Assembly (NCBI GenBank): GCA_958009085.1
Contig: OY253681.1
Span: 558,001 to 622,000, forward strand
Length of the DNA: 64,000 nt
Source: Protoeuglena noctilucae
Lineage: Eukaryota > Chlorophyta > Pedinophyceae > Marsupiomonadales > Marsupiomonadaceae
Reading direction: 5' to 3'
Under the pieces are notes generated by a model. It was not told the origin of the DNA and made no database searches. It saw nothing but the letters and a program-made list of their open reading frames with translations. The position numbers were made by a program, and so were the translations under genes. Positions 11,811-63,534 of the stretch are shown here, one piece after another; position 1 is the stretch's first letter, and the number at the start of each line of letters is the position of its first letter.

Positions 11811-12255
11811 TCACTCCTCCTCTGCTTTCTTGGCCGGGGGCACCCCGCAAGGGAGCAGCATCTTTTGCATGAGGTTGAACTTGACCCTGCGAGGACGCCA
11901 GGGCGGAAGCAGTTGCACAAAGAGCCCGGCCGGGGTCATCAAGTGCAGTGCAGCGCCTGTGCCTCGCCTCCCAACCGCCTCATTCTCCGCCAGCGCGAAG
12001 TACAAGACCATCCCCGAGTGCCCGATGTAAGACGCGAAGCTGTCGCGGTGCATGTTGACGGCCCACTCACTGCGAAGAGGGGGGGGCGCCCACGAAGAGC
12101 TCGCGCGCTGCGCAGCCCCAGGGACGCACTACGCGCGATCCGTCGCCTCCAAGCACTCACAATTTGGCAATGTCCGGGTGCCCCGTCCCTACGTGCTTCT
12201 GCTGGAGGTGTTCCAGCTGGGCGTAGATGTTGAAGCGGTCCATCTGCGTCGCCAT
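11811..12255 (-). CDS. SF3B5: Splicing factor 3B subunit 5 (SF3b10/Ysf3)
   Basis: Small subunit of the U2 snRNP SF3b complex, which recognises the branch site. Exons are 12255-12161, 12069-11968 and 11886-11811, giving 90 residues against about 86 in animals. Family motifs are MDRFNIYAQLEHLQQKHVGTGH, FEWAVNMHRDSFASYIGH, AENE and RVKFNLMQKMLLPCG. Intron 1 is GTGAGT...CAG. Intron 2 (11967-11887, 81 bases) starts with GCGAGG, not GT; removing it gives AENEAVGRVKFNLM, which has exactly the usual spacing from AENE to FNLM. The intron is in frame and stop-free, so an unspliced reading would add 27 foreign residues. The gene ends close to the 3' end of the convergent LPA1-like gene. Confidence 0.93.
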
Positions 12256-13014
12256 GGCTCTTCCCTAATGAATGACGAACGAGCGACAGCTCCGGCTGCG
12301 AAAAGGGGGGCTGGGACCCCGCGAGCGGCGCCCAATCGCACAGGCGCAGACGCGAATCGCCGCACTGCCTCCGTATCAGCGCGGCTGCGCAACCTCCCCG
12401 ATGTCCGCGCTGACACGCTCTGGGTGGGTGAGATGGTGGCGACTGACCACTCTAATTGCGCCAAGCTCTATAGACCCGGGGAAGTGTAAGAAAGGGCGTT
12501 TACCAGAGAAAGTGTGTCACGCGCATTGCGCGAGGGGGCCGTGCGACGGCGGACGAGCGCCAGTTCGGCGATCAAGTCCTCAGCGTGATCGACGGAACGC
12601 GTCGCGCGACGGCGGACGACGCGGCGGCGCCGAACGGGTCCTGCAGGGCGGCGCGGCGACCGCGCGTGCCGCGGACGGCAGCTTCGAAAGGAGAAAATGC
12701 CAGGGGCGGCGGCCGCGGGACGTCCGCGGCGCGGCAGACGCAGCGCGGAGCTAACTGCAGTGGGCAGGGATCGCGCGCGCTCCGCGGACGACGGCGACGA
12801 CCTTCGTCGCGGCGGTGACGTGTCCGTTATGACGGGGTCGATCGCACCGCGCGTGACGCGAGGGCCCGGACGTCCCGGCGACCGAGTGCCGGGCGCGCGC
12901 GGCGGTGTCGTGCCGCAGCGTTCAACGGGGGCGGTCCCGGCGGCTCCCGGCGCCGTGCGACGCGCGAGCGGCTATGCGTGGGCGGGCCGCGACGAGGACA
13001 TGGTCGGCGGCGCG
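12256..13014. other. Gene-poor CpG-rich stretch upstream of SF3B5
   Basis: The first 200-300 bases presumably include the SF3B5 promoter. From about 12540 the sequence becomes dense in CG dinucleotides (runs such as gcgacggcggacgac), visibly unlike neighbouring genes, and this continues into the helicase remnant at 13015-13500. Open frames on both strands are simple Arg/Ala/Gly-rich readings of this composition and match no family. It may be the flank of an inserted element. Confidence 0.4.
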
Positions 13015-13500
13015 TCACGGCGCCGCGCGGAGCGCGGCCAGCGACGCGTGGGCCGGGCGCATGTGGCGCATCGCGTGGAGGACCTGGACGATCTTGAGGT
13101 CGACCCCGCACGCCCGGAACATTTTCTTGAACTCCTCCCTGCTGTGCCTGACGAAGTGCAGCTGCGCGGCCGACTGGACGCGCGACATGGCCACGTACGC
13201 GTGGCCGCTGGCGAAGCACCCCGCGAGGTCGACGAGGACGTCGGTGGCGTACGTGCTGCCCTGGGCCTTGTGCACCGTCATGGCACCGTGCAGCGTCACG
13301 CAGTGCCTGAATATGAGGTTGGCCGACACAGCCGTGGTCGCCGTCGGGACGACGTGGAAGCCCACCCTCAGAACTTCCCGGTCCCAGCGCGCCCGTGCAC
13401 GACGAGGGACATTTGAGGAATGTCCCCGCCATTCCGTCGCGCCCCGACCATCTCCAGTGGCACGGCCAGCGCCGCTGAAAAGCCGTCGCACCCAGCTCTC
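13015..13500 (-). pseudogene. Decayed PIF1-type helicase, C-terminal fragment
   Basis: The segment reads, on the minus strand, a clear C-terminal superfamily-1B (PIF1/RecD-like) helicase piece. FHVVPTATTAV leads into the motif AMTVHKAQGSTYATDVLVDL and then ASGHAYVAMSRVQSAAQLHF, the conserved end of the motor. The frame stops at 13015. Just upstream in a different frame is SLVVHGRAGTGKF and a stop, which resembles a Walker A loop with the final Ser/Thr changed to Phe. No intact N-terminal motor or start is present, so this looks like a broken copy, as left by Helitrons, Polinton-like or viral insertions. The local composition differs from the surrounding genes. An alternative is one exon of a larger host PIF1 gene, but I find no other exons. 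Confidence 0.62.
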
Positions 13501-14128
13501 CCACCGTCCCGAGCCTGGCCGGCCTCCACAGCACGGGCCCGGAGATCGGCCGATGCAAGGAGGACGTCCCGACGACCGCGCCGTCAACAGGCTGAAGTAG
13601 ATGGGGTATAACGACGCCGCCCTGGCAACCCAGGCCGAGGTGGACCGCATCTTCGACGACATGACCAATAAGGCCGCCACGCCCCGGAACCTCGATGCCC
13701 TCCTCGTCAACCTCAAGAACTCCTCCGACGCCGACGACGAGTGAGAGGCTGTATGCCACAGTCTGCCAACCGCAAGCGCTGCACGCCTGCTGCAAGTCTG
13801 CTGCTAATCTGTCATAGACGCAATTGAACGAGTGATCGCTGACACCCGTCGGAAACCATCCTCAGAGCTTAAGCCGGGGGCCAGGGCCCCCCGGTCCTGA
13901 TCATGAAACACGGCTCCTCAGGCTCTGGCAGGGAAGCCAGCCTGGAAGTTTCACGTACCAGTATAACCAGGTCACCCAGCAAGCGCTTTTTCGGAGTGAC
14001 TTGCTGTAAGACGTTGCCGCCGTGGCGTCCGCTGCGTGTCCCCGGCGCTCCGCTGGCCAGCGTCAGGCACTTTCTGTCTTGCCCCGGCCGGGTGCGACAG
14101 CCTGAAGAGCGAGACAGCCCCAACGCCC
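13501..14128. other. Intergenic region upstream of prolyl 4-hydroxylase
   Basis: No supported gene. A 47-codon plus-strand frame (13601-13744) starts with ATG and ends in an acidic tail SSDADDE. It has protein-like composition but no recognisable homology. The last few hundred bases should include the promoter of the gene starting at 14129. Confidence 0.35.
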
Positions 14129-15884: not shown

Positions 15885-15977
15885 GAGAAACACGATAGAT
15901 GTAAACATCGAGATGTTAGACAGCGCGTCGCCGCTAAGCGTTGGGCGCAGCGAGGCCTTGAGGGCATGCGCCACCGC

Positions 15978-18900
15978 TCAGCTTAGGTCGAATCCCGCCC
16001 CACTTCTGATGGCGTAGAGGAGCTTGTCCCGCATGATGGCAGTCGAGGGGTAGGGGGGCAGCTTCAGGAGGTTCATGCACGTGGCCGCCGTCGGGAGGCG
16101 GTGGACGGCGTCGCGGTCGCCCACGTGCCCGGCCATCTGGATGCCCATGCGCGGCTCCAAGTACCCGAATCCCAGCAGCGGCGGGCGGGAGCAGCTGGTG
16201 ACGAACTTGAGCAGCAGGCCCTGCTCGTGGGGCGTGAAGGAGGACAGCGCTTCCCAGAAGTTGTGGATGATGGGGTGGTCGTCCGCGTACCCCGCCCCAT
16301 AGACCACTGCGGCGGGGGAGGCACGGGACATGACTCACTCGCACCGGCCTCGTCTCTGCCCGCCATTTCACGCTCTGTCTCTTCACTCACCGTGCCTGCG
16401 GAGGTCCTCCACGGCCCACCCGCCGTCCGTCTCGACGCCGCTGATGAGCATCTGGATCTCTTGCCCCGCGAACATTGAGATCCACCGCGAGTCGATGACC
16501 TCGAAGAAGCCCCCCAGCAGCGCCTCGCACTCCCTGCGGCACTGCACGTTGAGCTTCCAGTGCGCCATCAGGTGGACGTACCGCACGACGTTGTCGTTCG
16601 TCACGGGCACCTCGCGCCCGTTCGGCACGAGGTCCACGACGCGCTTCTCGCCCTGGGCGTCCACCTCGACGCTGAACGTCAGGCTCAGCTCCTCCACGTC
16701 CCCCGTCAGGCGGTACTCTTGCAGGAAGGCCAGGTTGCGGTGCAGCTCCGGGTCGAGCGACGGGAGGTCCTCCAGGTCGCACACCTCACCCCTGCGGCAA
16801 AGCCCACAAGCCATGCGAGGCGCCAACAGGCACGGGCAAAGCAGCACAAAGGGCCAGCAAGCCGAGCGCAGTCGCGTGGCGGCTGCCCCCGCCCCCGCCC
16901 CTCACCGGAATTTCTTAAGCAGGAACCCGGCTAGCGGCAGCTCCATGAGGATGCCCTCGTACACGGCCTTCCCCAGCATGCGACCGAGGAAGGACAGCAG
17001 CCGGAAGTGGTTCCCCGGCTCCCAGCCGCTCGACCCCGAGAAGGCCGGGTACACGCGGTGGTCGGCGGTGGAGGAGAAGAGGCCCGCGTCCGGCTGCAGC
17101 GCGGCCTTCATGAGGCCTTCCAGGAAGTCCTTGAACAGCCCGCCCCCGTCCACGCCCGCCTCCTCCAGCCCGTGCTGGTCCACAAACATCACGCGGAGCT
17201 GGCGCTTGAGGCCCTCCCCCGAGAGGTTGAGACCCGCGAAAGCATCCGCGATCAGGTGGTCCCGACGCACCCGCACGAACCGCCCGTCGCCCATGGGCCC
17301 CGCCCACCCGCGCCGGTGGCGCTCTCGGTCGTGCCGCACCACCTCGCTGAAGGCCAGCGCGCGCTCCATGAACGCGACCAGGTACGGCGCCACCCTCAGG
17401 AGCTTCCACACCCGGCCGCCCCCCGCGCCATGCCGGGGCACGCCGCGCCCGTCCAGCGCCGAGCCCCCGGCCTCTGCCGACCGCGGCATGCCCGCCCATC
17501 GCCCCTGCTGGACCCCCTCTGCGGCCGCAACCAGGGGCGTCCAAGCCAGCGACGCGTCCCCCGCGAGGCCCTGCCCCGACGGCCCCACCCCCTCGTCGTC
17601 CGAATCGTCGTAGCTGTCGGCGTTGGCGATGGCCACTGCGTCACGCACCAGCGCCTCCCCAGGGATCTGCCCCGTGTGGAACGCCGCCTGGGGCGCGAGC
17701 GGCTCGCGCAGGTGCCGCGAGTAGAGCTGCGCGTACAGCCGGCCGCAGGCGCCCTGCGCAGCCGCCCGGAGGCACTGCGGGGCGCCCTCGACGCCCGTCG
17801 ACGGCGCAGACGGCTCGGACCACAGGAGCCGCGTCAGGGCGTCTCTCAGCATGGGCACCAGCCCCCGCTGCGCCCGGAGCCCCTCCCTGCCCGGCATCTC
17901 CGAGAAGAGGTCGGCGGGGGCCAGGGGCTTGCCACGCACGCGCAGGTCCTGCTCGCTGCACACGATGAGGCCGATGCTGAAGACGTGCGAGAGGAGCGTG
18001 AGCGGGAGCAGGTCCCCGGGGTCGCCCCGCGCACGAGCGAGGGGTTGCGCTGCGGCCTCGTGCCAGGCGGAGGGGTGGCACTGGCAAGGGCGCAGGTAGT
18101 GCCCCCACAGCGCAGGGACAAGGTTGGTAGAGAAGGCCAGCGTGCGGAGCACGTTCCCACGCGCGGGGTCCTGCCGGGCCCATGCGAACAGCAGCGCCTG
18201 CAGGAAGGGGCGGGTAGAGCTTTCACACGATGTTCGCAAGGCAACACATTGATTACCGGCAACACCACACATTCGCCACTCGCCTCACACAAATGCTGCA
18301 CGGCCTGATGGTCGGCACGCGGCAGGTCCGAGCCCTCAGCGGCCAGGTCGGCGCACGTGGCCATCCACCCAGGCCACAGGCAGACCTGGATCAACGGCTT
18401 CAGCAGGCCGGGCTGGTCGAGGTCGGATATGGCGGCCCCCACGGCGCCCCCGTCATCGCCCGGCCCCTTCTGCAAAGCCGCCACCTCCAGCGTCACCAAC
18501 GCATTGCACAGCCTGGCGCCCGCACGGACGGACACGGCGACGAGCTCGCTGTGCGCTGCGCTGTCCTCCGCGAGGTCCATTGACGAGCGCGCCAGGGACC
18601 CCGTGCGCTGCACGACCCGGGCGCGGCGGCTCTGCAGGTCGCGAATAGACTCGGCCAGCCGAGCGTGCACGTGCGGCAAGGCCACGGCCGACAGCGCGAG
18701 CAGGTTGCGCAGCACGACCCGCGGCGTGCCACCATCAGCCCGCAGCGGCGCCGGGGACCCCAGAAGCGCCACCCACAGATCCACCGACGCCTCGGATCTC
18801 AAAGCGGGGCAGACGTCCAGCAGGCGAGGCACGCGCAAGAGGCCCATGAGGGATTCCACGGCGACCCCCCTCTCGGCTGCTGCGGGAGGGAGAACCTTGC

Positions 18901-20246: not shown

Positions 20247-21328
20247 TCAAGACAGCCCCGAGGCTTGCAGCTTGGCAGTCAGGGCAGCGATCTTCGAGTC
20301 CTTGAGGCGGACGAGGGTCTCAAGCTTCGACACCTGCGAGCAGACGTCCTGCAGCTCAGAGGAGACCAGGCGCGAGGAGATGCGCGGAAGACACCGTGGC
20401 GGCAGTGAAAACGCACCTTCGCCTCCAGGATGGCGCACGTCTCACGCAACTCGTCGACCTCGCGTGCGGAGCCACGCCCCACGGCGGCGGTGGTCCCCTG
20501 GCCAGCGTGCACGGACCCTGCCGAGCGAGCACCCCAGTCCCCCTGCGCCGCCGCGCCGTCGCTGGAGTGGGGCGCAGGTGGCACAGCCGAGGTCGGCGTC
20601 TCGCGCCGCGCTCCAGGGCTCGGGCCCACGTCGTTGGGGGTCCCCATGGGCGTGGCCGCCGACGAGTCCGTCTGGTCCAGGCCGGCCTTCGCGGCCTTGC
20701 GCGTCTGCATGCGGGTCGACGGCGACATAGTCGGGGAACTCGTCCCTGTGTCCCTCGACCACGCAACAGGCCCACGTGCCGCGTAGGCTTGCCTTGTACG
20801 TCGCCATCTTGACCTTGATGAGCTTCAGCACGCGCTCCACGGCCCCCTGGGTGCAGTTGGCCACGGACTCCATCTCGTGGCGTGGCAGGGAGAAGCCCAG
20901 GCGTTTGAACACCTTGGTGTTGAGCGTGTTCCAGTTGTACATCTTCTGTTGGACTGCGGGACGGGGTGGGGAACAACACGTCTTCCCACATACCAGGCTG
21001 CGTGGCGGGAACGAGCCAAGAGCAGCCACACGCGCCAGGCCACCAAGAGGCGCACCCGAGTTTGCGGGGGAGTAGTTGTGCAGCTCCACCAGGTTCGGGA
21101 AGTAATGCCGGATGACCTCCGCGCACAGCACGCCGTCGCTGAAGTCCCGTGCAATGTTACGCTGCAGAGCAGGGGACGGTGGGGCCTGAGCTTGCCTGCT
21201 TCTGCCCCACCCACGAACCACGCGCATTCCAGCTCCGCGACGAGGGCCATTCGCACCTTGGGTCTTGACAGAGGAATCTCGTCCACCCACGTGTAGAGCG
21301 CGTGGAGCTCCTCCTCCGCGATGTCCAT
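20247..21328 (-). CDS. SPEF1: SPEF1/CLAMP calponin-homology protein
   Basis: Microtubule-bundling protein of the axonemal central apparatus. The start at 21328 reads MDIAEEELHALYTWVDEIPLSRPK, and after an intron (AAG|GTGCGA) continues RNIARDFSDGVLCAEVIRHYFPNLVELHNYSPAN. A further exon follows (about 20960-20780) with WNTLNTKVFKRLGFSLPRHEM and NCTQGAVERVLKLIK. Together these form the single calponin-homology domain typical of SPEF1. The rest is a Ser/Pro/Ala-rich linker and a C-terminal coiled coil (SSELQDVCSQVSKLETLVRL) to the stop at 20247, also as in SPEF1. Its presence implies a 9+2 flagellum. It is transcribed in the same direction as the HECT gene downstream, 227 bases away, and divergently from MIS12. 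Confidence 0.9.
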
Positions 21329-22265
21329 GATTCCACCGTCCAGCCACTGCGGCAGAGGTATTGGAATGTGGGAATGAGCTCGCACGCGGGCTGGCTCCGA
21401 TCCCAGACCACGCGCAGCATACACGCCCTCGAGGTGACCAGGGAGTGGTCCGCCATGGCGCAGTCGCGAGACCTGGTGGCGCCGGGGCCCTGCGCCTTTG
21501 ATGGCATGCAAAAAGCGCGTAGCCCGCGCAGCGCCGCGGTCCGTCGAGTCCGCCGGCGCCAGCTCACGCGATATACTGAAACACGGGCGAGGTGAGCATG
21601 GACCGGAGCGGGATGAGGCGCGGGATCGCGCAGCAGGGGTTGAAGGACCGGTCGGGCCTCATTCCCCCCCACCCCGCCCCAGTGCAGTCGGCAAGCAGTG
21701 GCGCGGCGCGGGGGGAGTATCTCAAGTTCGATGAGACTTCGGGCTCGCAGAGCCTGATACAGCAAGCCGCGAAAACGCTCCCTCCATGCTGCTCACCACC
21801 GGCGCCGCGCGCACTTCGAGTCCTCCGTGCCTCCGAGCTGCGCTTTACCCACTTATGCTGTCTTTCGTGGTCGAGATTCCCCTCTGCGCCCTCACGCGCC
21901 CGCAGCGACCGCTCACAACGGTGGGCCAAAGCGATGTTCCAGGCCAGCCCCGCGCGATGCGACGATCCCGATTTGAATGTTCTCGCGGGGGCCGTCATCG
22001 GTCACGCCCCAACCGCCACCTGAACGACGTCAGGCGCAAGTGGGACTGACGGGGCATCTGCCGCGCGTGTCGAGACCCCCCCCAGCTCATGGCGACGTCA
22101 CTTCCTCGATATCTTGACGTGGCTTCGGACGACAGCAGTTCCAGCGGCACCCCTGCTCCCACGGCACGCTTGCTGTCGCGCCTTCCCCGCCTTCCTGGCC
22201 CTCATTCACGCCCTAGTCCCCTGCTTTGCCCACTTGCGGTGGGAAGCGCCGCGCGAGCGCGTGGG
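21329..22265. promoter_or_regulatory. Divergent intergenic region between SPEF1 and MIS12
   Basis: About 940 bases lie between the divergent starts. The plus-strand frame from an upstream ATG at 22089 runs into MIS12 and could extend it, but the extra 59 residues are low-complexity Ser/Pro/Arg and absent from the family. I see no RNA gene or repeat here. Confidence 0.35.
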
Positions 22266-23550: not shown

Positions 23551-23654
23551 CTTGCTCGGTGGCCAAACGACGGCGAGGCTGCCCATCCACTTGGGGGGGA
23601 GGGAGGCCGGCAATCAAAACCCACACATTGAACGACACGCATCCCATCGAAACG

Positions 23655-26600
23655 CTAATTGCCCGCAAGTCTCTTCGCGAAGTTGTCAAGGCTGAATTCG
23701 TCCTTGTACTTGTCGGCGTCCGCTCCCGCGCGCTCCAGCTCCGCCAGCGCCTCGGCCAGCGCGCTCTGCTTGGCCTTGCGCCGCCCCACCGACTCGGGGT
23801 CACTGAGCCCCAGCAGCGCGTCTGGCTCTGTGGGCAAGACAAGTCAAACAGATTCGGCACGCATGCCGCATCGAGGCCAGCAGCATCGCCAGCCCCCGGC
23901 CAACGACCAGCCCGCTGCGCGCCTTGCGCCCCCGACGGTGCGTCTCGCTTCCCATCGCCCTCAAAGAGATTGAGGAGCTGCGAGGTGTCCATGGACGACA
24001 GCGCCATGTTGTCGGCGTTGACGACCGCGTTCGCAACGTCGACCTTGAAGCGCTGTAGGGACATGATCTGCTCCTCCAGCGTCCCTTGGACCTGTGCATG
24101 ACGCATGGCATGCACGTCGCCAGGCACGGCACCGCACAGCAAAGCCTGGCACGGCACGGGCGCGAGCCACATCGCGGCAACTCACCAGGATGCGGTACAC
24201 GTTGACGGTGCGCCGCTGGCCCAAGCGGTGGGCGCGGTCCATGGCCTGCAGGTCCTTCATGGGGTTCCAATCGTGCTCCAGGAACACGACCGTGTCCGCC
24301 GACGTCAGGTTCAGGCCCAGGCCCCCCACGTGCGTCGTCAGGAGCATCTGCGTGGGTGGCAACCCGGGACCTCACAGCCCACACCCCAGTGGGCAGGCCA
24401 GGGCTGTGCCAAGCTCCCACGCACCACTGGCACGCTGGGGTCCTCGTTGAACTCCTTGACGACGCGGAAGCGCTGGGCAGCGTCGACGGAGCCGTCCAGC
24501 CGAACGCTCGGGACGCCCAGGGGCCGCAGCACGTCGGCCTCCACGAGGTCCAGCAGCGCACGGGACTGGGCAAAGACCAGGGCGCGGTGGCCACCCGCCT
24601 CGCTGCCCGCTACGGCCTGCGGGTAGATTTCGTAGAGCAATTTCGGCCCTGCATGTCCACCCAGGGCTGCGGGTCTCGCGGAGGTGCCAGCCATGTCCAA
24701 CGCCCCACCTCCTGCCCCTGCTCCTCCGAGGCCACCCCAATCCCGCAGTCCACCAGCAGCTCCTTGAGCGCCATGAGCTTGGGCGACTGCGCGACGTCGC
24801 GGAGGGCCGCTGCGACGGCCGTGGGGTCGCACGTCCCGAGCGCCTCTCTCGCGGCCTTGGCGTGGCCCGGGTCGGACAGATTGAGCGCGAGACCGGGGTG
24901 GCTGCAAACTTTCCGCATGACCTGGGGCGCAGCACAAGGGAGGGTGAGCTGCTTCACCCGAAATATGCACCGAAGATCACATGCCGCCGACCACCACGGG
25001 GGCCCAGTTATGGCCAGTCGTGGCATGCAGCCGGCGAACGACATTCTTCGGCTCTCACCTGGAGTGCCTGGAACACATGCGTCGTCTCCTTGCCCGATGC
25101 AGCTGAGCTCGACGGCCCCGGCTCCCCCCCTGCACCCCTGTCGCCCTCGTGCGCCCCACCCAGGCCCCTCGCCATGTCAAGCAGAGCCAGCTGCAGGGGC
25201 GTGGGGTCCACGAGGACGTCCTGGATGATCTTGGGAGGCAGGTCCTTGAGCACCTGGTCCTTGGTGCGCCGCAGAATGAACGGCATGACCTGCCTGTGAC
25301 GCAGGAGGGCCACGGGGGGATCACGGATGCGCTCGCATCCTCGCCGCATGAGTGCCTTTCGCCATGCGTTTCTCACTTATGCAGTTTGTCCAGCGCGAGG
25401 AGGCCCTCCTGTGCGTCCTTGACCCCCTTGCCCTGCCGCCGCGTCTCCTTCAGCGCCCTCCCGAACTTGGCGTTGAAGGCGCGCTGGGAGCCCAGGAAGC
25501 CGGGCATGAGGAAGTCGAAGATGCTCCAGAGCTCGAGGACGTCGTTCTGAATGGGGGTCCCCGACTGCAGAAAGGCTTGGACGCATCGAGCGTCAGGTGC
25601 TGCCGGGGGTCGGCAACGCCAGGTCGAGTCCATGCCCGTATGCCCGCACACGCACCAGCACCAGCCTGTGAGCCGCCACTAGGCGTTTGCAAGCCGCAGT
25701 CACGGCGCTCTTCGGGTTGCGGATGGCGTGGCCCTCGTCGAGGACGGCGTAGTCCCAGCTCCTGCTGGTGGCGACGGCCACATCCGCACGCAGGGACTCA
25801 TAGGACGTGACGGCGAGGTTGGGGGCGTTGGGGTTTGCCGAGAAGACCTGCGCAACGAGGATGTCAGTGATGGCGACGGGAGGTGCGGGGGAAGACGGGG
25901 TTAGGGCGCTGACCTTGCTGACCACGCACCTGGGCCCACAGACGCTGCCGTTCCACCCCGCTCCCCTGGATGGCGATGGGTCGGAGCACTCCCCCGGGGA
26001 TCCACCGGGACACCTCGTGAGCCCTGCGTGGCGCGTGAGGTGCAAGCATATGCGTGCCTCCAGCACTGGTCGCTAGTAATAGGCAGCCCTTGGCAAGCCC
26101 TGCCACGCGTGCCTGCGCCCCCAGACCACCTCAAGCCTCACCAGTGACCGACAAGAGTGGCCGGGCAGACGACCAGCGAGGGGAGGGGAGGCGGGGAGGT
26201 CCCGGGGTTGTCGCGCCATGCCTGGGCAGACTCGGCCGCACTGGAAGCCATGATGGCTGCGCTTTGGAGAGTCTTGCCCAGACCTGAGCGAAGGAGAACC
26301 GCAAACCTTCAAAGACCCGCGCAACATCCTCGGGAAAGCACTCCCTCCCTTCCCATGCAGCGAACAATGGCGGCCTCACCCATGTCGTCAGCGAGCACGC
26401 CGTGGAGATGGAAGTGCCGCAAGAAGGCCAGCCAGTTGATGCCATCCTGTTGGTAAGGCCGCAAATCCCCCGCAATCGCGACCGGCAACCTGCAGGACAC
26501 GCCAGCAGGCTGCATCACTCGGTGGCAACCCCCAGCCCTGCCATGCTCCCCTTCCAGCGCGCCCCGCACCGGTTGTCCTGAGCCTTGGAGTTGTCCAGCA

Positions 26601-29600: not shown

Positions 29601-31900
29601 GCGCCGCCATCTGCCCCAGCTTGAGCAGCAGCTGCTCCAGCTGATCGCGCTCCAAGGCCCGGGCGACCACCCCCAGGGCCTGGGCTGCCGTCTCGCTCAC
29701 TGGGGCGGTCACCTGCGACGTGGGACCGGACCACAGGGGCTGTCACAGGTCATGGCCATCTCCCAAACCATGCTAATTGGCCAGAGCCAGGCACGGGCAG
29801 CAGCGACAGACGCCACTTGTACATTGCGCCATGCCACGCCCAGGAGCACTCGCCTGGGAGTCCTGGATGTCCGTCAGCCTGTCGATGGCCAGAACCACGC
29901 ACAGCCGCACAACGCAGTTCTCCATCCACACTCGGTGGCGGCGGGCCTCCTCCGCGGCCATGGGGGCGTCGGAACCGTGCGCAAACATCAGCCCCGGCCC
30001 TGCGTGATGGGTAACAAGGGTGCAATCGCATCTAACAGCCCCATCACAGGGCGGCACGTGAATAGAGGTGGTTATATATGCTGATACAACTCACCATCTT
30101 CCTTCTTCACGGCCCTCGCCGCTCTCTTCCCCGCTTCCGCGCCTGCCGGCTGGGCGTCCCATGCATGTCGGCTGGCCCCACACCCCTTGGCGTGCCATGT
30201 GAGGATGTCCCGCAGTGCCGCAGCTGCCCCGTGGCGCACCTCCCAGCACGGATCCAGGAGCGCATGGTGGAGTTCGTTGCACAGCGTCTGGAAAGGCCAT
30301 CGCCCTGCCAGGATGGCCTGGTGCTCCTGCATGCGATGCAAACCAAATGGCATCCAGCAATCACTTAAAGCCCGCTTTACAAATGCAACGGCCTTCTCCC
30401 CATCTCGTCACCTTCGCTGAGTCCACCTCTGCGCCAATATTGCCCCAGATGAAACCGTCGTCTCCAGGCACATCCTTGCCACCATCTGCACCCTTCTTCC
30501 ACTTCCCTGCGCCAAGGACATGCAGATCGAGCTTCGATGGCCGCAGCCCACGACTCCGGAACGCAACGGACGATTGACAGGCGACAACACCGCCGCCACC
30601 CGCCTGCCGTGGCGACCATCGTGCTCGTGGCAGCCCTGCGCTTCAGCCTCGCCCGCTCGCGCGTCGACATCTGCAGGGCTGACTGCGACATAAACACGCA
30701 GGAATGAGCGTTCATCACCGTCTGCTCATCGCCTAGTACCCAGGCCATGACAGATCAGCATCGGGTATGCAGAGCATCATGCCACAGTTGTGCCCCACAC
30801 TGCGCTCGGCATTCCGAGGCCGGAACCCCACCTGCAAGGCGTCCGCAGCCCCGCCCTTCTCCTCCTCCCCGCCCGTGTCTGCCGCCTCGTCCTCCCGCAT
30901 CACGTCCTCCTCCCCCACCCCCACGATGTCTGCAGGCATCGACAAGTGACCATGGCCCCTCGCACTGCACCCCACCTCTACTCCCACCTGATTTAATCCC
31001 CTCTCGCCTTGAATCCCCAGCGTGCTGTCCAGGTCCTCCAAATCCAGCTCTCGCAGCAACCGCCTCCGCAGCTGACGCTTGCGTTCCGCGGGCGGCAGGG
31101 ACCGCAGGGACCGCTCCCAGTCGCTCTGCTGCTTCATAGGACCCTTCACGAGCTCGATGCCGCTCCCGACGACGGCGTCCACGTCAAAGCCCGACAGGGT
31201 CAGCAGCTCCCCATCGTTCGCAGGGTCGGACGGGCTCGGCCCATTCGACTCCGCATCGGGACCGCCCGCGCCACCCACGGAGGGCCAGAGGTCGACCGTG
31301 GGCGGGTGGGGGAAGAAGCGGGCCATGAGGCCCAGGGCATCGGCGGCAGCCATGCGCGTGTCCCAGTCCCGGTGGCACAACAAGGGCGCGATCCTCCACT
31401 GGAAGGACATCAGGTGGTCCGGCGACGAACGGCACAGCTCCGCGAGCTGGCGGCCCGCCTCACGCTTGACATCCGCGGTCGTGCCCTCTGGGGGAAAGCA
31501 GCATCGGCGGTCGGTCAAGGTCGCCACTCCGGGGAGCCCACGCGCTGCGCATGAGGCAGTCCCTACAGTCGCCAGCCACCGTCGGCATGTGAGGAGACTA
31601 CGCATGCATTGGGCGAGTCCCCAGGGCTTCGAAAGACCCCGAGGGAAGGAGCACGATCCAAGGGAAGGGGCGCCTGACTGTTTGCGCGAGTCGTTGCGAG
31701 AGGACAGCAGCTCTTCGCGTTATCAAACACATCACCAATTCGCCACGATGAGCAGGGGATCGAAAAGCCGGCGATGGGCCTCTATAAAGCAGGCCCAAAC
31801 CTACCGCTGCCTCTTGGACGCTAGGCGCTTCGAAGCAGCACGCACCCGTGAGGACGCGCACCAGGCGCTGTACGCGCGTGCCACCCTTAGCTTCAGACAT
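23655..31900 (-). CDS. BTAF1: BTAF1/MOT1 Swi2/Snf2 ATPase that removes TBP from DNA
   Basis: Swi2/Snf2-family ATPase that dissociates TATA-binding protein from promoters. The start at 31900 reads [18 protein letters not shown] and, across an intron, [18 protein letters not shown], matching the MOT1 N-terminus. HWDTR-like [14 protein letters not shown] begins a long HEAT-repeat array (about 31500-26500). The motor starts with [29 protein letters not shown], joined across an intron to the Walker [14 protein letters not shown] (about 26400-26240). The Walker B box is DEGH ([14 protein letters not shown]), then [76 protein letters not shown] and [18 protein letters not shown]. The C-terminus ([47 protein letters not shown]) is diagnostic of MOT1. 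About twenty introns are present; exon edges are not all fixed. Confidence 0.94.
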
Positions 31901-49914: not shown

Positions 49915-51135
49915 CTACCCTGTCGCAAAGGTATACTCCACCTCCCTGCCGTCGTAGTCCACGGCCTTCCCTGTCCTCTGGACGGACAGGAAAGCCCGCA
50001 GGGCAGCCGTGGCGCGTGGGGGCCACCGACCCCGGACGCGGTCCACGGCAGCCGCCTTGGAGTAAAGGAAGCCTCCCAGCCCATCCTGCGACGGGCCGAC
50101 AGGGCAGGCAGAACGTGACACGAAGCTGGCAGGTGCTTGGCGCTGGCATCTGCCCAACCAAGCCAGGCCTACGCTTACCTGGCTCGACTGTAAGGCACTC
50201 CACTCCCCCTCGGCGCCCGCCTCGTCCCCCAGACCCCACAGGAAGGCAACGAGGGCGCAACGTGCGTCGAGGAAGTCCCCGTCGCGCCGTAGGAGTTGCC
50301 TTGCCACTCTGGGCGAACGAGAGGGTCAGGGGAGGGGATGGTTTGACAGCAGAGAAGCAAGTCCATCCAACTCTCGCCAGGGGCTGTCATCGGCACACCT
50401 GACGGCTTCCTGGTCCCTGCCCTGCTGGAAGCGTGCCAACGACAGGTTGGCCAGCGCGATGGCCTGCAAGCAGCATGGCTGGCCGGTTAGGCACGGTGAA
50501 CTGGGTCGCACCCACGCATCTGAGAGCTGCTCCTTCCGAGGGATGCAAGTGCGCAACGACTTGCCTCCATCTCTGGGTCCTGGGACGCCGCCTTGTAGCT
50601 TGCAGCAGCACCATCCCAGTCACCCAGCGCCCCCTGAGCGTTCCCGAGGTTGTTGAGGACCACAGCATCCGCGCGGCCCTTGGATGCGGTCTCCAGTGCC
50701 GCTGCGTGCTCCAGGTCGGCGGCGGCCCCGCGCCAGTCTCCCCGCTGCAGCCGGCTCGTGCCCCGATTCGACCAGCTGGCGGAGTTGCCGGGGTCCAAGT
50801 CGATGGCTCTGGACCACAGTGACTCGGTGTTCTCCGGCGTCACCATGGCCTGAGGGAACGCAGGGGCTCTGATAACCGCATTATCCGGCCGCGCTCTCAT
50901 TCACAGGCAATTCAAGCGTCGTGTCAGCCACCTGCCGATACAACTCGACGAGCTGCGGATCGATTCGAGCTTCGGCTGGTTGTTCGGGGAGGAGAACGAG
51001 CGTCCCCGTCGTCAAAAGTCCCAAAATGCCTCTCCTGCCGAGTAACGTACATGCACATTTGCAATCGCGGGCGGCCGCCCCTCGAACTCGGCCACATCGG
51101 CCCAGGTTGGTGTGCACGGCATGCATCGCAAGCAT
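49915..51135 (-). CDS. TPR-repeat protein, probably thylakoid-lumen or plastid targeted
   Basis: The ATG at 51135 opens MLAMHAVHTNLGRCGRVRGA, a basic presequence. A hydrophobic segment (GILGLLTTGTLVLLPEQPAEA) follows and ends in AEA, as in twin-targeting peptides of lumen proteins. An intron beginning GTGAAT joins TLELP to AMVTPENTESLW. TPR motifs then follow: WSRAIDLDPGNSASWSNRGT, RLQRGDWRGAAADLEHAAAL, VVLNNLGNAQGALGDWDGAA and ALANLSLARFQQGRDQEAVR. The C-terminal part (FLDARCALVAFLWGLGDEAG; DGREVEYTFATG) is conserved-looking but without named function. It resembles plastid TPR proteins involved in photosystem assembly, but I cannot assign one. It converges with CEP131, with 47 bases between stops. 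Confidence 0.7.
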
Positions 51136-51413: not shown

Positions 51414-52551
51414 TCACTGCAGCTCGTTGATGATGATTTCCTTGATCTGGTCAGCCGGCAGCATGCCCTCGGTGCGGAGCGCGGGCTTGGTCTTGTCGGG
51501 GCTAATGAACACGAGCGTTGGGAGGCCCCTGCGAGGAGCGGGCACGACTGCGTCCCGACCCGCAGCGCCGACACGCTCCCACGCTTCCCTATTCGCCCCT
51601 CTAACCCCCAATTCCTCACCTGATCTGCAGCTGCTGTGCCAGGTCCTCCTCCTCGTCGCAGTCCACTTTCAAAATCTTGACAGCGTCACCCATATCGGCG
51701 GCCACCGCCTCCAGCTCCTTGGCCAGCATCAAGCACGGGCCACACCATCTGCGGGCACGCGGCGACCGGTGAAACCTGGTTTGTGGAAGCAACGCAACGG
51801 CCGCAACCAACGCAGAGCGACACAGCTGCTGCAAGGAACCATGGCGCACAGTTGCGCGGCTCACGTCGCATAAAAGTCGATGACGATCGGCCTGTCGCGC
51901 TCGGCGATGGCGATTTCCAGGCCCGACGCGTCCACCTTCTCGACCTGCCCCTGCGAGCGGACAGCAGAGAGGCGTCGGCGTGCCCTCAAGAGCATGGCGC
52001 CTTGCTGCGCCGTCCCACGGCCCCGCCGGTGCCCGAACCACGCCCAGCCTGATTAGCACGCCACCCTCAGCATGAACAGGGCGTGATGCAGGCAAGGAGC
52101 TCAGGAAGTCTGGCGCGTGGGACGGCCCCGGGCCGTAACAACAACAGCGGGCTTCGGCGGTCGTCAGGGAGACGAGCAGCGCACGGCGAGGGCCAGTCAG
52201 GGGGTCACGGCAACATCGACGTAGCATAGCCTCGCATGGGCTGGATAACAGGGCACAAAAAGCTCTACCGTCGGCCGGCGGGGATCTCGGCACGTCACCA
52301 AGAAAGCCGACGCACTGCTCCTCGCCTGTGCGCGTACGAGCTCCCTGCGCGGCACCCGGTCCCTCCTTACAGACAAAACAAGCCCAAGAGGCCGCCGAAC
52401 CGCCCCCTGCGGGCAAGAAAGCGGCCATCGGTCGCCATACGGGCGCGATGACACGAACGCCGCCCTGCCATCCCATGCATGCCCCCACGACCGCCACCTG
52501 AATAGTCGGGGGGGTGGCCCTGGGCAACAGGGCACACCGCAGGCGCTGCAT
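51414..52551 (-). CDS. Chloroplast thioredoxin z (CITRX-like)
   Basis: Redox-active thioredoxin of the plastid nucleoid transcription machinery. Exons 51944-51865, 51748-51620 and 51528-51414 are certain. They read VEKVDASGLEIAIAERDRPI, VIDFYATWCGPC (WCGPC active site), KILKVDCDEEEDLAQQLQIR, and GLPTLVFISPDKTKPALRTE followed by GMLPADQIKEIIINELQ. The RTEGMLPADQI ending and the FISPD segment point to thioredoxin z/CITRX rather than f, m, x or y types. The WCGPC box is itself completed across an intron (GCG AC|A TGG). A first exon at 52551-52498 (MQRLRCALLPRATPPTIQ) fits in phase and looks like a presequence, but it makes a short protein of 125 residues. A longer upstream first exon is possible. 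Confidence 0.84.
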
Positions 52552-53078: not shown

Positions 53079-56000
53079 ATGTCGCTGCTCCAGAACTTGA
53101 CCGTCGAGGACCTCCAGGTGAGCAGCCAGCGCCAGGGTCCTGGGCCCGCTCTTCCGCATCCCGACGCGGAGTTTGATGCGCGTGAACTTGCTCGTGTCCG
53201 ACACGACGGCTCGGTGGCATCGGTGACCTCCGCAGATCATGAAGGCCATGCTGGAGAGCATCCCGGAGGGGCAGAACCCAAATGGCTACTTCACGAAGGA
53301 GCGATTCGCTTCCGTCATGAACGCCACGCTGCCCAGTCTGGGATCCAGGGACGACCGTGCCCAGCTGGAGTCCCTCTTCGATCAGATAGACACAGGCAAG
53401 TTGCCATGCGAGGCGGGGGCACGGGCGGAGCGGCACATGTCAGCATGATGTGCCGCTATTCGCGCATGCTAGCCGCTCCCCTGTTGCTTGTGACTGTCGG
53501 TATCCGTGCACCTAACTCCATGACATTGGAGAGGCCCAGCACCCCCTGCTCGCTGTTGCTTGCAGACGGGGTGGGTTTCGTCACGTGGTCGTCGGTGTGC
53601 AACTTCATCTACTACGTCGAAGAAAATCTCGGAAGCAGCAGCGTCGTGGAGCGGTGGGAGCTCCTGGGGCCCACTCGCATGACCAAGGCCCTGCGGGACA
53701 AGTGGCACCAGCAGCCCGTGGACCGCATCCGGTACTGTGCTGCGCTGGACAAGTACTTCACGGCGGGGAGGCGAGGGGCGGGCGCTGCGACGCATGCGCT
53801 GCCATGTCCTCTGCCGGCGATGCGAGAGCCTGCCGGGGCTACGGCCACGAACGGAAGATGGGGCGTCGCGGCTGCAGGGATAGCACTGTCAAGATCTGGC
53901 AGGGCCGCTCGCTGATCTTCCAAGCATCGCTGGACGTCGGCATCGCCGCCCAAGTGACGGACGCGTGCTTCGTCACTGGGAAGAAGACGCTGGTGAGGCA
54001 GGGTCAGCAACCCACGTCCAGCCGTGCGTGCCAGGGCGTGCTTGGGGACGGCTCTGTTACCGTGGGTGCCACATGCTCTGTGCAGGTCGCTTCTGCCATG
54101 GACGGCAACTTCTACTTTTTTGAGCTCCACCGCGGCAACTTCGAGTATCGGGGCCAGATGACGGGCCACACGAAGGACGTGGGAATCCCCATGTGCCTCG
54201 CATACTTTCACAAAGACCGCACGGGGCAGCACGTGGTCCTCTACGGGTGAGGCAGGGGAATGGGAGGGTGGCCGTGCAGGGTGTCTCAGCCATGGCGCAT
54301 ATGGTAGCTGCCAGTGGCGCGCCACTGGCTTCGCCATTGCAAATCCACTTCAAGGCTGAGCTCATGATTTCGACCTGGTGCGCCGCAGAGACACGCTGGG
54401 GAGGGTGGGCATGTTCCTGGGTCCCTACAAGCGCATGAAGGACCCTCTGGTGGAGGAGTTCAAGGAGATGCAGAAGAAGGACGGCAAGCAGCACCGCAAG
54501 ATGCTGGACAGGGCACCCATGGCCAGGGTCGGGGTGGAGGTGGAAATCATCGATGACGGGCACCGGGACTGGGTCACGCAGATCCACTTCTGCGAGAAGA
54601 GCGAGGTGGGGGCGACGCACACCGATGGCCCGCGTGCCGTCGTTGCAGCGACCTGGAACAGCCGCCCGCCTCGGGCAGCTCAGCGTGCTGTGCCGGGTGC
54701 ACTCACCTCATGCATCGTTCCCTGTGTCCCAGATCCTCATCTCCAGCTCCCGCGACAAGACCCTCCGCGTGGTTAACATGGAGACGCGGCGGCCCATGGC
54801 CGTATGCCGCCTGCACACCCGCGGGGTGGTGGGATTCGACTACTCGTACGAGCTCGGCATCGTGGCCTCTTACGCCAACGAGCGCCAGGTCATCGTCTGG
54901 GTCGTGGACGGCGCCTCCCACCTCATCACGATCAAAGTCCCCACGGTCCTCACCGGGGCAGCCATCATCTCCGCCACCAACCAATTATCCACCCTCCACA
55001 ACGACTACTCGGTTCGACTCTTCGACATCCGCACCGGCGCTCCATTGCAGGTGCCGGGCGCTTAGCGAGCCACGGCAAGGCTGCACACGACCCTGGATGT
55101 GGTGACATGTCAATGCATGGTGCCCGTGGCTTGTTCCCGAGCAGGTCTTTGAGTCGAAGGACATGCCGGGGCTGGTGGACAGCAAGCCCACGAGCATCGT
55201 GTACGACGCATCGCGGCTGCGGCTCATCACGTGCAACACGCGCCCGATGCCCTGGGCCTACCGGTGCGTCGAGACCCTCACCCAGGGCCACAACGGCCCC
55301 GTCCGCACCATCACCTTCTCGCCCTCCTTCAACGCCATCATCACCGGTGAGCGGGGCCCTGAAATGCATGCGGCACTTGCTTTGGACTCCGCCTGCATGA
55401 CGCGACCCTTCCGCACTGCCCACCGCGTGCCACGCAGCGGACGAGAACTCCATGGTGATTTCCTGGGACATCCAAACGGGGAGCGTGCTCGCACGGATCC
55501 CCAACGCGCACGCCCCCGGGAGGGTGACTGCGCTGGCCGTCGACTCGTCCGGCCGCCGCCTCCTCACGGGAGGGTCGGACGGCACCGTGCTGGGCTGGAA
55601 CTTTGTGTCTGGGTTCCAGACGACCAGGTGAGACGGGTCGGGGATGGCTCGCGGCACGTCATTTATGGCTGCGCAGTCCCTCGATCAGTAAGTCTTCCGC
55701 GGTGTCGCTCTCATGGCTTGCCTGGTCCTCGAGTCACCATCTCTTCGTCCGACTCTGCGCCCAGGTACGTCGACGTGAGCGAGGACGAGGTCGCATGCAT
55801 TGAGCACTGCGTGCACCCCCTGCGCGGGTCGGCGTGGGTGGCCGCGGGTGGGTGGCGTGGGCGGCTGACGGTGTGGATGGACGACGTGGCAGCAGACTCG
55901 AACGTGTCCAGCAAGGCCCTGCGGGGACACACGGCGGACGTGGTGACGCTGTCGTACGACCCCGGGACGAATCTGCTCGTGTCAGGCGACGCGTGAGTGC

Positions 56001-58712
56001 AGCGCCGGCGCCCCTCGCTGACGATGCATGCAGCAGTCTTCAAGCAAAGCTTGATTCTCCCACACCGTTAACATCTGCAGTTCCGGCAAGATCCTCCTCT
56101 GGCACCTCACCACGAGCTCCCGCCGGGTGCAGCTCAACCACCAGGACTTCCTGACCCCTTTCTCGGGTCTCCTGTTCGACATCTCGTGCGAGTGTGCCGT
56201 CATGATCCCGGCAGCAAGGTTTGTGGCCGCCGACAACGATACGCAGCACCAGTCTCCTGGCCCCCACCGACAGACAGCCCTTTACAGACTTCACCAGACG
56301 TCATGGCACCGTGCGCAGGTCCTCCGAGCTTGCGCGCACGTTGGACGCCACGGTGCCCATGGCGCGCGGAGTGGAGGGGGAGGACTCAGTCGCCACCGTG
56401 CAGTCGGCACTCGATGTGGGGCGCCCCGACATGCCCATGCTGCTCACGGCCACGGCGGACGGACGGCTGCTGCTGTGGATGTTCGCGCGGACCGTCGGGG
56501 CACGCAGCCTCTTCCTCAGGCGAGGCAGGGGCAGGGTTGGGGCTTCTTTAAGCACCTCAAAGCATGCAAACACTCAGAACTCCCACTTAATCGTCCCCAC
56601 CCCTCTCTGGCCTCAGGTCTCAGCTGAACGTGACGAGCAGCCCCATGCACCAGGTCACGGCCATTGCCCTGGACGCCTCTCGCCGCCGCCTCCTGGCCGT
56701 GGGGGACTCGTCGGGTCTTGTGCTCCTCCTCGACATCTCCTCCCTCAACAACGGCACCGAGGCTGGCACATCGCTCCGGTGCTGCCGCAAAATCGCCCAC
56801 TTCCAGGCGCACCCCAGCGGCAACCCGGTCGCCCTCCTCACGCTCTGCTCCATGCCGGGGAGCGAGGACCCCAGCTTCATCGCCGTGGCATGCCGCTCGC
56901 GAGAGCCCCTCCTCTTCGCCCTGGACGGTCGCCTGGTGAGGGCACGGAAGCCCCAGCTCCACCCTGCTTTCGCCTGGTGTGCGCCTGCCGGCCCTGACAC
57001 CTTGACACCCGCCCCCGCGTCCCCGCAGGTCACGGATATCTCCGACGAGGCGCGCCTGGGCAACCACACCCCGCGCCCCAAGGTCGTCAAGGCCAGCTCG
57101 CAGGCGCGGGCCATGCGGCTCGACTCGGTCGAGGCGACCGGCTCAGGGCTGCACGACGTCTTCTTCCGCATCCACGACGAGAGCACGTGGATGGACCCGG
57201 ACGCCATGCACGTCATCCCGGCCGAGGCCGTGTGGAGCGTGGAGCAGGAGGCGGTGGACGTGGACGGGGACGGGGACGGGGACGACGGGGAGGGCGAGGG
57301 AGAGCCTTTGGATTCCGAAGTGGAGGAGGGGCTGTCTCCGGAGGCGTCGGAGAGAGAGGGGAGCGGGCAGGGGCGGCCGGGGGGTCGAGGGCCGACTGCA
57401 ACGGGGCAGCCGGGCAGCGGGCGGGGGAGCGGGCTGGCGCGGCGGGGCCCTGAGGGCATGTCGATCCAGCGCGCGGTGAGCAACGTGGTGTTGGAGGACA
57501 TCAAGCCCGGCCGGTGGCGCCGGAAGGGCGGGGCGCTGGCGGAGATTGAGGAGGGCGACGAGGGCGGGGAGGGAACCGAGGGCGGGGGCATTGAAGACAG
57601 CGCCTCCTCCACGGCTGTGCTCGAGGACGCGGCGAGCAGGGGGCGGGTGGCGAGCAGGGGCGCGCTGGGTGCGGCGGGGGGGACGTCGTTCTCGGAACGG
57701 TCGCCTCTTGGGAAGGGGCGGGCGGGCCTGGACGCCGCGCTGAAGGTCGGGGAGAGCGGGGCCAAGGTGGGCCGACGGACATCCGAGCGGGACGGCAAGT
57801 GGTCGTCGCCTCCCCGGGTGAGTGACCGCGTGGGTAGGCACGTCGGTGCCCGGAAGCGCACGCAGCGGAGACCCCATGAGGCGCAAGCGCTGCGTCCCCT
57901 TCCCCGGCACCGCAGACGCGCGCGGAGATGATTGCCGAGGCGCGCGCGCGCATCCCCTACAACCCCGAGGTGGAGCGCATGCTGGAGCGCCAGATGCAGG
58001 CGGCGACCGTCAAGGCCGAGCGCAACCTGGCCGAGCGGGAGGCGCGGAACCGGGGGGAAGAGGCGGCGTGGCGGCGCGGGGAGGGCCCGTTGTCGAGCGC
58101 GCAGTCGCGGATGCGAGTGTACGACATCACCGAGGTGCCGGACACGATCGACGGCGTGCTGGCCACCGTGGGCCTGAACTACCTGACGGACCCTGTGCTC
58201 AAGGCCATGATGGTGAAGGACGGGCGCCGCCGGCGGGAGCGGGGCGGAGGGGACGGCGCAGGGGGCGACGGGGGCGGCGAGGAGGGCCGCGAGCGGGGGG
58301 CAGGGTCCGGGACCGACGGGGACCGGCGGGGCAGCGTGCTGGCGGAGCTGGCGGGAGTGCAGGGTGGGCGCACGCGGTCGGTTGAAGTGGCCATGGAGAT
58401 GGACGAGGTGCGGCGCACGGGGCGGACACACACTTTGGCTTGAGGGTCCCTGTACGTCGCGCTCGTCATCACGGTATGTCAACCCTCGACCCTGCGCAGA
58501 TGCTGGAGGCCATGATGAAGAAGAGCCGGGCGGCCAACGTCCCCATGTTCGAGCGGGGGAAGCAGGCCGAGGTCTTCCGGAGGCTAATCATGGCGAATCT
58601 GAAGCCCGAGCATGTCGAGGAGGCGCGCGGAATCGCCGCCGTGCAGCCGCGCAGCCGACGGGTCACCCGGGTCGAGGGAGACAGGGACGGGGCGTCCTCG
58701 GACGACGATTAG
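53079..58712 (+). CDS. EF-hand/WD40 flagellar protein, WDR49/CFAP337-like
   Basis: Large axonemal-type protein with an EF-hand N-terminus and two WD40 propellers, the layout of WDR49/WDR64 and of FAP337, an inner-dynein-associated protein. The start is MSLLQNLTVEDLQ (53079). A helix-loop region follows (IMKAMLESIPEGQNPNGYFT; LFDQIDTDGVGFVTW). WD repeats run about 53880-56940: DSTVKIWQ, ILISSSRDKTLRVVNMETRR, SVRLFDIRTG, VRTITFSPSFNAIITADENS, RRLLTGGSDGTVLGWNF, SGDASGKILLWHL, LLTATADGRLLLWMF, AIALDASRRRLLAVGDSSG. A disordered acidic/Gly-rich stretch (57240-57800) and a Glu/Arg-rich helix precede YDITEVPDTIDGVLATVGLN. The last exon (58500-58712) ends in GASSDDD. Three introns start GC: 53396 GCAAGT, 53771 GCGAGG and 56520 GCGAGG. 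Each is needed to keep the frame (for example KYFTAGR|DSTVKIW). Confidence 0.85.
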
Positions 58713-62000: not shown

Positions 62001-62302
62001 GCGTGGGGGCGGCTCTCGGGGCCCATGTGGAGTTGAGCGCAGTGCAGATCGAGCGGGCGGCCAGCTTCGGAATCGAGTGCTACGATTCCGGCAGCCAGGT
62101 GGCCGTCTCCTTGGGCACCGTGGCCCATGCGGGGGACTCGGGGGTGCACTGCGAGCGGGGCGGGCGCGTCACGCTGTCGGGCACCGTGCTGGCGGACTGC
62201 GCTCGCTGGGGTGTGTACACTGTAGGCAGACAGAGCGTGGTGGTGCAGGACAGCGTGACCTTCGCCCGCTGCGGCAAGGGGGTTACCCGCACAGTTCGCT
62301 GA
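59015..62302 (+). CDS. Helical bundle-protein kinase-two TM-beta-helix protein
   Basis: Nine exons (59015-59092, 59199-59272, 59358-59553, 59628-60081, 60172-60237, 60320-60553, 60650-61086, 61168-61494, 61619-62302) join in phase to 849 residues. Residues 1-116 form amphipathic helices (MATVSQAVFLAAKVVQLTRM; AVLERVMRRLKLFHGRPRPV; KFALAAALQRDVEDLRKSIA) with HeLo/MLKL-like layout; a brace-like helix follows (VTRQDKRIQRLL). The kinase (about 185-510) has a Gly loop DRGGQGAVFEG, lysine K211 (FAVK), catalytic loop LHHDLKPENMLL (D345, N350), DFG at 366-368 and GYKDPSY plus DIYSTGAILLQL. It looks active, with HHD replacing HRD. Hydrophobic segments lie at about 541-561 and 602-618. Residues 640-849 contain about six 23-24-residue beta-helix turns (GLWVWEGSAAELSGCVVQRA; FGIECYDSGSQVAVSLGTV). 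The exon 3/4 joint is the least sure. Function is unknown; cell-death or receptor signalling is only an inference. Confidence 0.8.
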
Positions 62303-62562
62303 GCTGAGGGGAAGCTGGATTGATTCGGGCCTTCCACGGTCGGGCAATGTCCTGACGTTCTCGAGTTCTGGTGTGCAAGGCTGTCGTCTCCTATTGCAAT
62401 ACCAGGGACGTCATCTGCCTTATACGTCATACTGCTTGAAGAAACGTGATTGGCTCACGTCATGTTGTCTGGCACTGCTCGGTCACAGCAACAGGGGCAT
62501 ATTGAAGACTGGATGCTCTGGTACGCATTTCAACCGGGTGAGAAATAGCTATGACATGCGGA

Positions 62563-63534
62563 TCACTTGACGCCGTCCTCGCCACCCGAGAGGGCGTGAA
62601 TGAGGTGCCGCAGCAGCGTCGTGAGGTGCTTGCGCATGTTGAAGCTCTCCCGGATCAAGAACGCCACGTCCGAGTTGACGACCTTGAGCTCCTGCAGACA
62701 GGGCCGGAGAGGCTATTGACCCATCGACAGCAGGCCTGGGTGCCTGCCCTGCGGCCCTATTCGCTCCTGCCCTCGCCTGGCGGAGGAGCGAGTACCCCGA
62801 AATGAGCACCGGCGCCCCGTTGATGGCCAGGTTGGCCGCAACCAGCGCCGCCAGGGGCACCAGGGTGAGGAACATGCCCCCCAGGCGGCCCATAACCGAG
62901 AGACGGTTGCTCATGAACGTCCGGCCGTGGATGAAGCGGCCGCCTGCGAGCGTGAGCAAGCGCCGACGGTCAGCGAACGCGTTCGGCTAACAATCACCGC
63001 GGGGGAGAGCGCGCGCTGCTCACTGATGAAGACGGCCGATGCCAGGGCGAGGTAGATGGTGCGGACGACCCCCTGGTACTGCGCGAGAGGGCGACGGGCG
63101 GCTCATCAGAGCGGGACTGGCGAGCGAGCGAGTTGAAGAATGACTGCACGAGCGGGGCTTGCCTCGGCGATGAAGAGCGTGAGGAGGAACATGGGTGTGT
63201 ACTCGGCGAAGTTGCCGTGCGCGCGGATGCGGCGCCCCATCAGCTTGTCGCCGCCATCCCTGCGACACGCGCGAGCAAATGTAGGTTGTTGTCGCCGTGC
63301 CGCGGCCAAACAAAGCATCAGCCGCCCTAAGAATCCCTCGCGGCAACGAACTCGCCCGTACGCAATCGCCTTGGCCCTCCGCGTGCGGATCACCACCAGG
63401 GAGAGGATAAGGAACCACACTCCCAGCACAGATGCCGTGAACGAGGTCACGGGGAGCGCATGGAAAGCGCGGAAGTCGACGGCCTGCGCGCAGGACTTTG
63501 TGATGTTGGCCGATGGCTGCAGCCTGGGGCGCAT
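62563..63534 (-). CDS. MAPEG-family membrane protein
   Basis: Member of the MAPEG family (microsomal glutathione S-transferase/eicosanoid enzymes), predicted four-helix membrane protein. Exons 63534-63356, 63259-63163, 63078-63024, 62943-62777 and 62691-62563 join to 208 residues. Signatures are SVLGVWFLILSLVVIRTRRA then IAYGDGGDKLMGRRIRAHGN and FAEYTPMFLLTLFIAE, the family's GD-x-x-x-RAHGNFAEY core. Later come RFIHGRTFM and MGRLGGMFLTLVPLAALVAA, and a C-terminal helix (ELKVVNSDVAFLIRESFNMR) beyond the usual domain. Introns 1, 2 and 4 start GC (63355 GCGAGT, 63162 GCAAGC, 62776 GCGAGG), and the family core GDGGD is formed only by splicing intron 1. The ATG at 63534 is the first in frame; the family usually starts nearer the first helix, so an upstream exon is possible. 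No catalytic role can be assigned. Confidence 0.83.

Follow-up and report, generated by a model that had tools for sequence, protein, structure and literature searches.

Frequent GC-AG introns with a strict donor context in a GC-rich genome, perhaps that of a pedinophyte alga

Introns starting with GC instead of GT were analysed in a stretch of 64,000 nucleotides (the window; G000:C14:558001-622000) from a genome of 26.3 Mb in 26 contigs, and in parts of two further contigs, C1 and C7. GC donors open 98 of the 655 introns modelled over the window, C1 and C7, about one in seven of those sampled, which confirms the observation as real. A C at the second intron position (+2) is tolerated mainly where the remainder of the donor site is strong, and recognition is not simply relaxed. 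An earlier reading of the window (the original prediction) had listed at least 14 such introns, called their frequency striking and suggested relaxed U1 recognition.

Gene structures were modelled with a hidden Markov model (HMM), trained free of homology on the window and C1:300001-500000 (a 264 kb sample), with the acceptor AG imposed and intron length restricted to 35 to 1500. With GT donors only, the model converged at 534 introns with a donor resembling CAG/GTGAG (the slash marks the exon-intron boundary). In a second stage all 16 donor dinucleotides were allowed, with a prior of 0.85 for GT and 0.01 for each other, after which the frequencies were re-estimated. At the equal 1% prior per non-GT dinucleotide, 455 of the 548 introns had GT and 72 had GC, with at most four for each of the others (iteration 3); re-estimation gave 452 GT, 87 GC and nine others together, the last probably errors. 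When all 16 dinucleotides received the same prior, 551 introns were obtained, 372 with GT, 77 with GC and 102 with the other 14 together (3 to 12 each). A chance motif was rejected as the source of the GC calls, since at the same prior GC far exceeds every other non-GT dinucleotide.

The same excess was found when training and application were separated. After GT-only training on C1, an HMM run over the window at 1% priors called GC in 22 of 148 introns, and the reverse training, applied to C1, in 44 of 419 (other dinucleotides at most four each). As a held-out test, 50 kb of contig C7, outside all training, was decoded with the model frozen: GC donors made up 11 of 107 introns under the re-estimated HMM and 10 of 110 under the GT-trained HMM with 1% priors. 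The calls were also compared at all occurrences of AG/NN[AG]AG on both strands. At 1% priors, 56 of 144 sites with GC were called as donors, 75 of 104 with GT and none of 819 with the other 14 dinucleotides; with all 16 equal these numbers were 60, 71 and 6, and with re-estimated frequencies 68, 75 and 0. On C7 the corresponding calls were 8 of 21 (GC), 11 of 17 (GT) and 3 of 161 (others) at 1% priors, 9, 11 and 5 with all 16 equal, and 9, 12 and 2 for the re-estimated HMM.

All 14 positions of the original prediction are the first base of an intron, the sense strand reading GC[AG]AG, and the HMM trained on the 264 kb sample placed introns at all 14. The C1-only, GT-trained HMM with 1% priors recovered 12, missing 38151 and 18283. 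The number itself was an undercount, as 29 of the 138 modelled window introns had GC donors after re-estimation; C1 had 58 of 410, a difference that was not significant (Fisher p 0.06). The claimed context AG/GC[AG]AG held in part, with AG preceding 12 of the 14 donors, TG at 37865 and GG at 63355. Ordinary CAG acceptors were borne out in all 29 modelled window GC introns, where the AG is imposed by the HMM and the preceding C is learned. Retention would break the reading frame in 71 of the 87 GC introns and in 389 of the 452 GT introns. Median lengths were 101 for GC and 105 for GT introns and the learned acceptors were alike, a likeness to which the one shared model may contribute by drawing both classes together. 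Errors of the model were also seen: the PTPA and channelrhodopsin genes were fused into one, and two C1 genes received odd first introns. At small loci around the U1, U6, U1-C and LUC7 genes, kept outside the totals, the frozen model gave 6 GC donors among 20 introns; some of these models look wrong, one having internal stops.

Removal of GC introns was examined at single junctions. The protein spliced at 11967 aligned without a gap to human SF3B5, the channelrhodopsin junction at 41015 (FAYQ^YYYATCGWE) without a gap to the C1C2 channelrhodopsin (PDB 3ug9), and the three MAPEG junctions at 63355, 63162 and 62776 without a gap to the relative P0242. In a GT-only MAPEG model, compared by eye, all three junctions showed an insertion or deletion. 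Pfam scores were higher for the GC-spliced than for the GT-only models, with 116.1 vs 103.7 bits for SF3b10, 144.1 vs 124.3 for Tic22 (models differing at three GC introns) and 65.6 vs 53.6 for MAPEG.

Two public proteins cross GC introns exactly. P0002 (label jgi, contig of 1374 b) is 99% identical to the PTPA query; its residues 1-181 of 198 equal the PTPA model and span two GT introns and the GC intron at 42486, while its final 17 residues continue where the HMM wrongly joins the next gene. P0122 (label lgn, contig of 1012 b) agrees exactly, over 254 of 255 residues, with the modelled protein of a C1 gene that has C-terminal processing peptidases as its best relatives, and spans three GC and two GT introns. 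This match corresponds to about 1210 bp of genomic DNA (765 coding and 445 intron, summed by hand), more than the length of the contig, which therefore appears to be spliced and which we infer to be cDNA. GC introns are removed from transcripts at these four junctions, at the protein level only. A search with the MAPEG protein found no transcript of the same species.

The public protein P0243, a prediction for the MAPEG gene that is marked as encoded in the window, by eye continues across the GC intron at 63355 and stops within that at 63162; it is an annotation error of the kind that GC donors cause. With GT as the only donor allowed, gene callers would here get about one intron in seven wrong, as P0243 does with two.

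Apart from +2, GC donors were stricter than GT donors. The full core AG/GC[AG]AG was present in 68 of 87 GC donors, compared with AG/GT[AG]AG in 75 of 452 GT donors (Fisher p 6e-29). The frequencies in GC vs GT donors were 0.90 vs 0.59 for A at −2, 0.99 vs 0.92 for G at −1, 0.86 vs 0.59 for A at +4 and 0.97 vs 0.86 for G at +5. Expressed by context, C stood at +2 in 68 of 143 donors with all five core bases and in 19 of 396 with fewer; equal GT and GC priors gave 71 of 146 full-context vs 28 of 394 weaker donors, and all 16 priors equal 60 of 131 vs 17 of 318. In computed U1 pairing, the GC contexts, given a U at +2 for scoring, reached −9.94 kcal/mol, compared with −7.58 for GT donors. Ordinary GC-AG introns also carry a stronger consensus in the remaining donor. 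PMC11732430 names AG (U5) and RAG (U6) halves of the donor; both halves are satisfied in 68 of 87 GC donors here and in 75 of 452 GT donors. Of the suggested relaxation of U1 recognition, the tolerance of C at +2 stood, but no change of the U1 RNA was found in the one U1 gene recovered, and the GC donors are stricter elsewhere. They look like a compensated loss rather than a general relaxation.

Two further properties of the 264 kb sample were recorded. The acceptor reads YGCAG, and 82% of GT introns have G at −4; C at +4 occurs in 29% of GT donors (GTGCG) vs 6% of GC donors. A k-mer scan of the introns for a branch point gave no clear motif.

The GC introns are probably ordinary introns of the major spliceosome in which T at +2 became C where the strong fit of the remaining bases tolerates the lost contact, with GC mutation bias as the source. 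A GC-rich mutation bias would repeatedly turn GT into GC; selection would purge GC from average sites, but only weakly from full-strength AG/GYRAG sites, whose remaining donor bases may fit the splicing RNAs so well that a single lost contact is tolerated. This account presumes that the change went from T to C, that mutation bias drove it, that tolerance has a threshold and that the recognition machinery is otherwise normal. GC content in the window was 64 to 70% across 4-kb steps.

Several points weigh against this explanation. The direction from GT to GC is unproven, and the RNA origin of the P0002 and P0122 contigs is one that we infer. A higher GT prior favours strong contexts among the GC calls; the contrast persists under equal priors, and the decode with all 16 equal is noisy, 102 of its 551 introns being neither GT nor GC. 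In full context C occupies +2 in 48% of the donors, still under the intron composition of 62% (C/(C+T) = 0.62), so that +2 is not free. Moreover, Micromonas RCC299 has 2.7% GC-AG introns at 64% GC (PMC3033335), and genome GC content alone is thus no predictor of the GC-AG fraction.

As a bolder extension, which we put forward tentatively and hold to be possible rather than probable, the donor rule of this lineage might be AG/GYRAG: with the exon side (U5-type) and +3 to +5 (U6-type) satisfied, +2 could be any pyrimidine, drifting toward the base composition of the genome, with neither introners nor a change of the U1 RNA. If true, the rule would offer a measurement, made by nature, of the weight that +2 carries as a function of the remaining site.

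The strongest competing explanation, although we consider it unlikely, is an altered machinery other than the U1 RNA (U1-C, LUC7, U6 contacts or an RNA modification) by which +2 is read as any pyrimidine. For Aureococcus and Micromonas, Iwata and Gotoh (PMC3033335) suggest a role of RNA modification or of U1 snRNP proteins, only a single LUC7-type gene was found in the genome (C1:730690-731383, both of two candidates scored), and most GC donors satisfy both of the donor halves named in PMC11732430. On the other hand, the U6 ACAGAG box is canonical, the U1-C zinc finger aligns without a gap to human U1-C, with substitutions that may or may not affect it, and nothing links such a change to GC donors. 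In the U1-C gene itself, intron 2 as modelled (G000:C1:1785753-1785910) has a GC donor, TCAAAG/GCGAGC.

Descent from introner elements carrying a GC donor is very improbable. The precedent is the IE-A1 introners of Micromonas pusilla, 53% of which have GC donors (PMC3879977), and here such descent could hold for introners that are old and decayed. However, no introner family was detected among the 548 introns compared, nor with the one GC intron searched genome-wide (53396..53565), which matched only itself. Only two non-self pairs were found at E<=1e-3, one of which joins a GC and a GT intron over 24 bases; the six introns with a further match within the 264 kb were all GT introns. Intron pairs numbered three vs two for shuffled sequences at 30 bits and zero vs zero at 35, and a donor/acceptor repeat signal was absent (6.10 vs 6.02 matches).

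Slightly less credible again is a variant U1 snRNA with a changed base pairing to +2; for the GA donors of Eurytemora, a U1 variant was put forward (PMC7072748). The look at the U1 5' end that the original prediction recommended spoke against such a variant here: among the 41 of 427 candidates that were scored, the sole U1 gene found starts canonically, with AUACUUACCUG. The altered 10-mer TACTTGCCTG, whose pairing partner at +2 would be C, has 20 genome matches vs 18 for a reversed control, the 20 places not being viewed singly, and a dedicated variant U1 would need no stricter donor context.

That the introns are misread, with other GT donors or retention in their place, has a negligible probability: the readings of P0243 and the fusion of PTPA with channelrhodopsin by the HMM show how errors arise, but they are outweighed by the frame breaks on retention, the ungapped homologues at five window junctions and the exact public proteins across four GC junctions. 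An origin in the minor spliceosome was set aside, one AT donor being present among 548 introns; the search for a U12 snRNA gave no genome match, and no control matched either.

Emiliania huxleyi, which is not a green alga, provides one of the few precedents for GC donors at high frequency. Of its 241 hand-mapped junctions 56% are GC-AG (PMC4028052); like the present introns, its GC donors are combined with canonical AG acceptors in a genome of about 65% GC, but they form the majority there and a minority here. Reported GC-AG fractions are 39.6% in Aureococcus anophagefferens, 22.2% in Micromonas pusilla, 7.7% in Chlorella and 2.7% in Micromonas RCC299; Aureococcus and both Micromonas have a canonical U1 5' end, and the cause was called an enigma (PMC3033335). 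The present genome resembles Aureococcus and M. pusilla in being a GC-rich algal genome with a high GC-AG fraction, GC and GT introns of similar length and a canonical U1 5' 11-mer, at a fraction differing from both of theirs. It differs from M. pusilla, whose GC donors are tied to introners (PMC3879977), in that no introner family was detected. GC-AG introns of plants, animals and fungi, at about 1% (PMC6310983, PMC7072748), share GC at the donor and AG at the acceptor, but are about tenfold rarer. The original prediction was right that the frequency is high, as it far exceeds the level of about 1% that plants usually show; PMC3033335 and PMC4028052 provide precedents for it.

As a similar excess is known from a few GC-rich algae, this is a new example and not a new phenomenon: a case of high GC-AG frequency, perhaps in a pedinophyte and apparently independent of introners. 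It may add another green lineage in which introners seem not to be the cause and the U1 5' end once more shows no change; whether C stands at +2 depends sharply on the remaining donor. No title on pedinophyte introns or their GC-AG introns was found in the open-licence literature, as judged by titles. The genome belongs to a green alga: among the matches listed for PTPA, the best named ones are green-algal proteins. In a tree of 25 rows, the window protein and 24 named proteins picked by hand from 120 listed matches, it pairs with Pedinophyceae sp. YPF-701 with a support of 93/90, under the tool's mark for strong support; this kinship is suggestive only.

GC-AG introns modelled in the window. 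Names in quotation marks are labels of the original prediction; additional introns are those modelled beyond its 14. C1-only, the GT-trained HMM of contig C1 with 1% priors.
Gene or feature	Position	Strand	Donor	Support
SF3B5	11887..11967	-		HMM; ungapped vs human SF3B5; Pfam SF3b10
TIC22	33653..33760	+		HMM; Pfam Tic22
"oxygenase"	37865..37954	+	GCAAGT, TG before donor	HMM including C1-only
same gene as 37865	38151..38231	+		HMM; missed by C1-only
channelrhodopsin	40902..41015	-		HMM; ungapped vs PDB 3ug9
PTPA	42393..42486	-		HMM; crossed exactly by P0002
"CEP131-like"	47950..48061	+		HMM including C1-only
"WDR49-like"	53396..53565	+		HMM including C1-only; genome match itself only
"WDR49-like"	53771..53877	+		HMM including C1-only
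"WDR49-like"	56520..56616	+		HMM including C1-only
MAPEG	63260..63355	-	GG before donor	HMM; ungapped vs P0242
MAPEG	63079..63162	-		HMM; ungapped vs P0242
MAPEG	62692..62776	-		HMM; ungapped vs P0242
"HECT"	18198..18283	-		HMM; missed by C1-only
additional	9726..9807	-		model only
additional	7470..7554	-		model only
additional, sperm-protein CH-like domain gene	20705..20792	-		model only; Pfam CH_2 in protein
additional, weak	21347..21426	-	GCGTG	model only
additional, weak	23828..23922	-	GCGCG	model only
additional	27774..27914	-		model only
additional	29713..29853	-		model only
additional	30507..30603	-	GCGGG	model only
additional	30930..31007	-		model only
additional, TIC22	33133..33224	+	GCGGG	model only
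additional, TIC22	34108..34195	+		model only
additional, same gene as 37865	38583..38709	+		model only
additional, weak	39840..39917	-	GCGTG	model only
additional	50464..50564	-		model only
additional, weak	51951..52061	-	GCGTG	model only

The protein of the gene containing the intron at 37865, labelled an oxygenase, had no Pfam match. Between genes, the GC-rich region at 12500-13900 of the window resembles by eye helicase fragments, which we take to be candidates for the PIF1/Helitron type.

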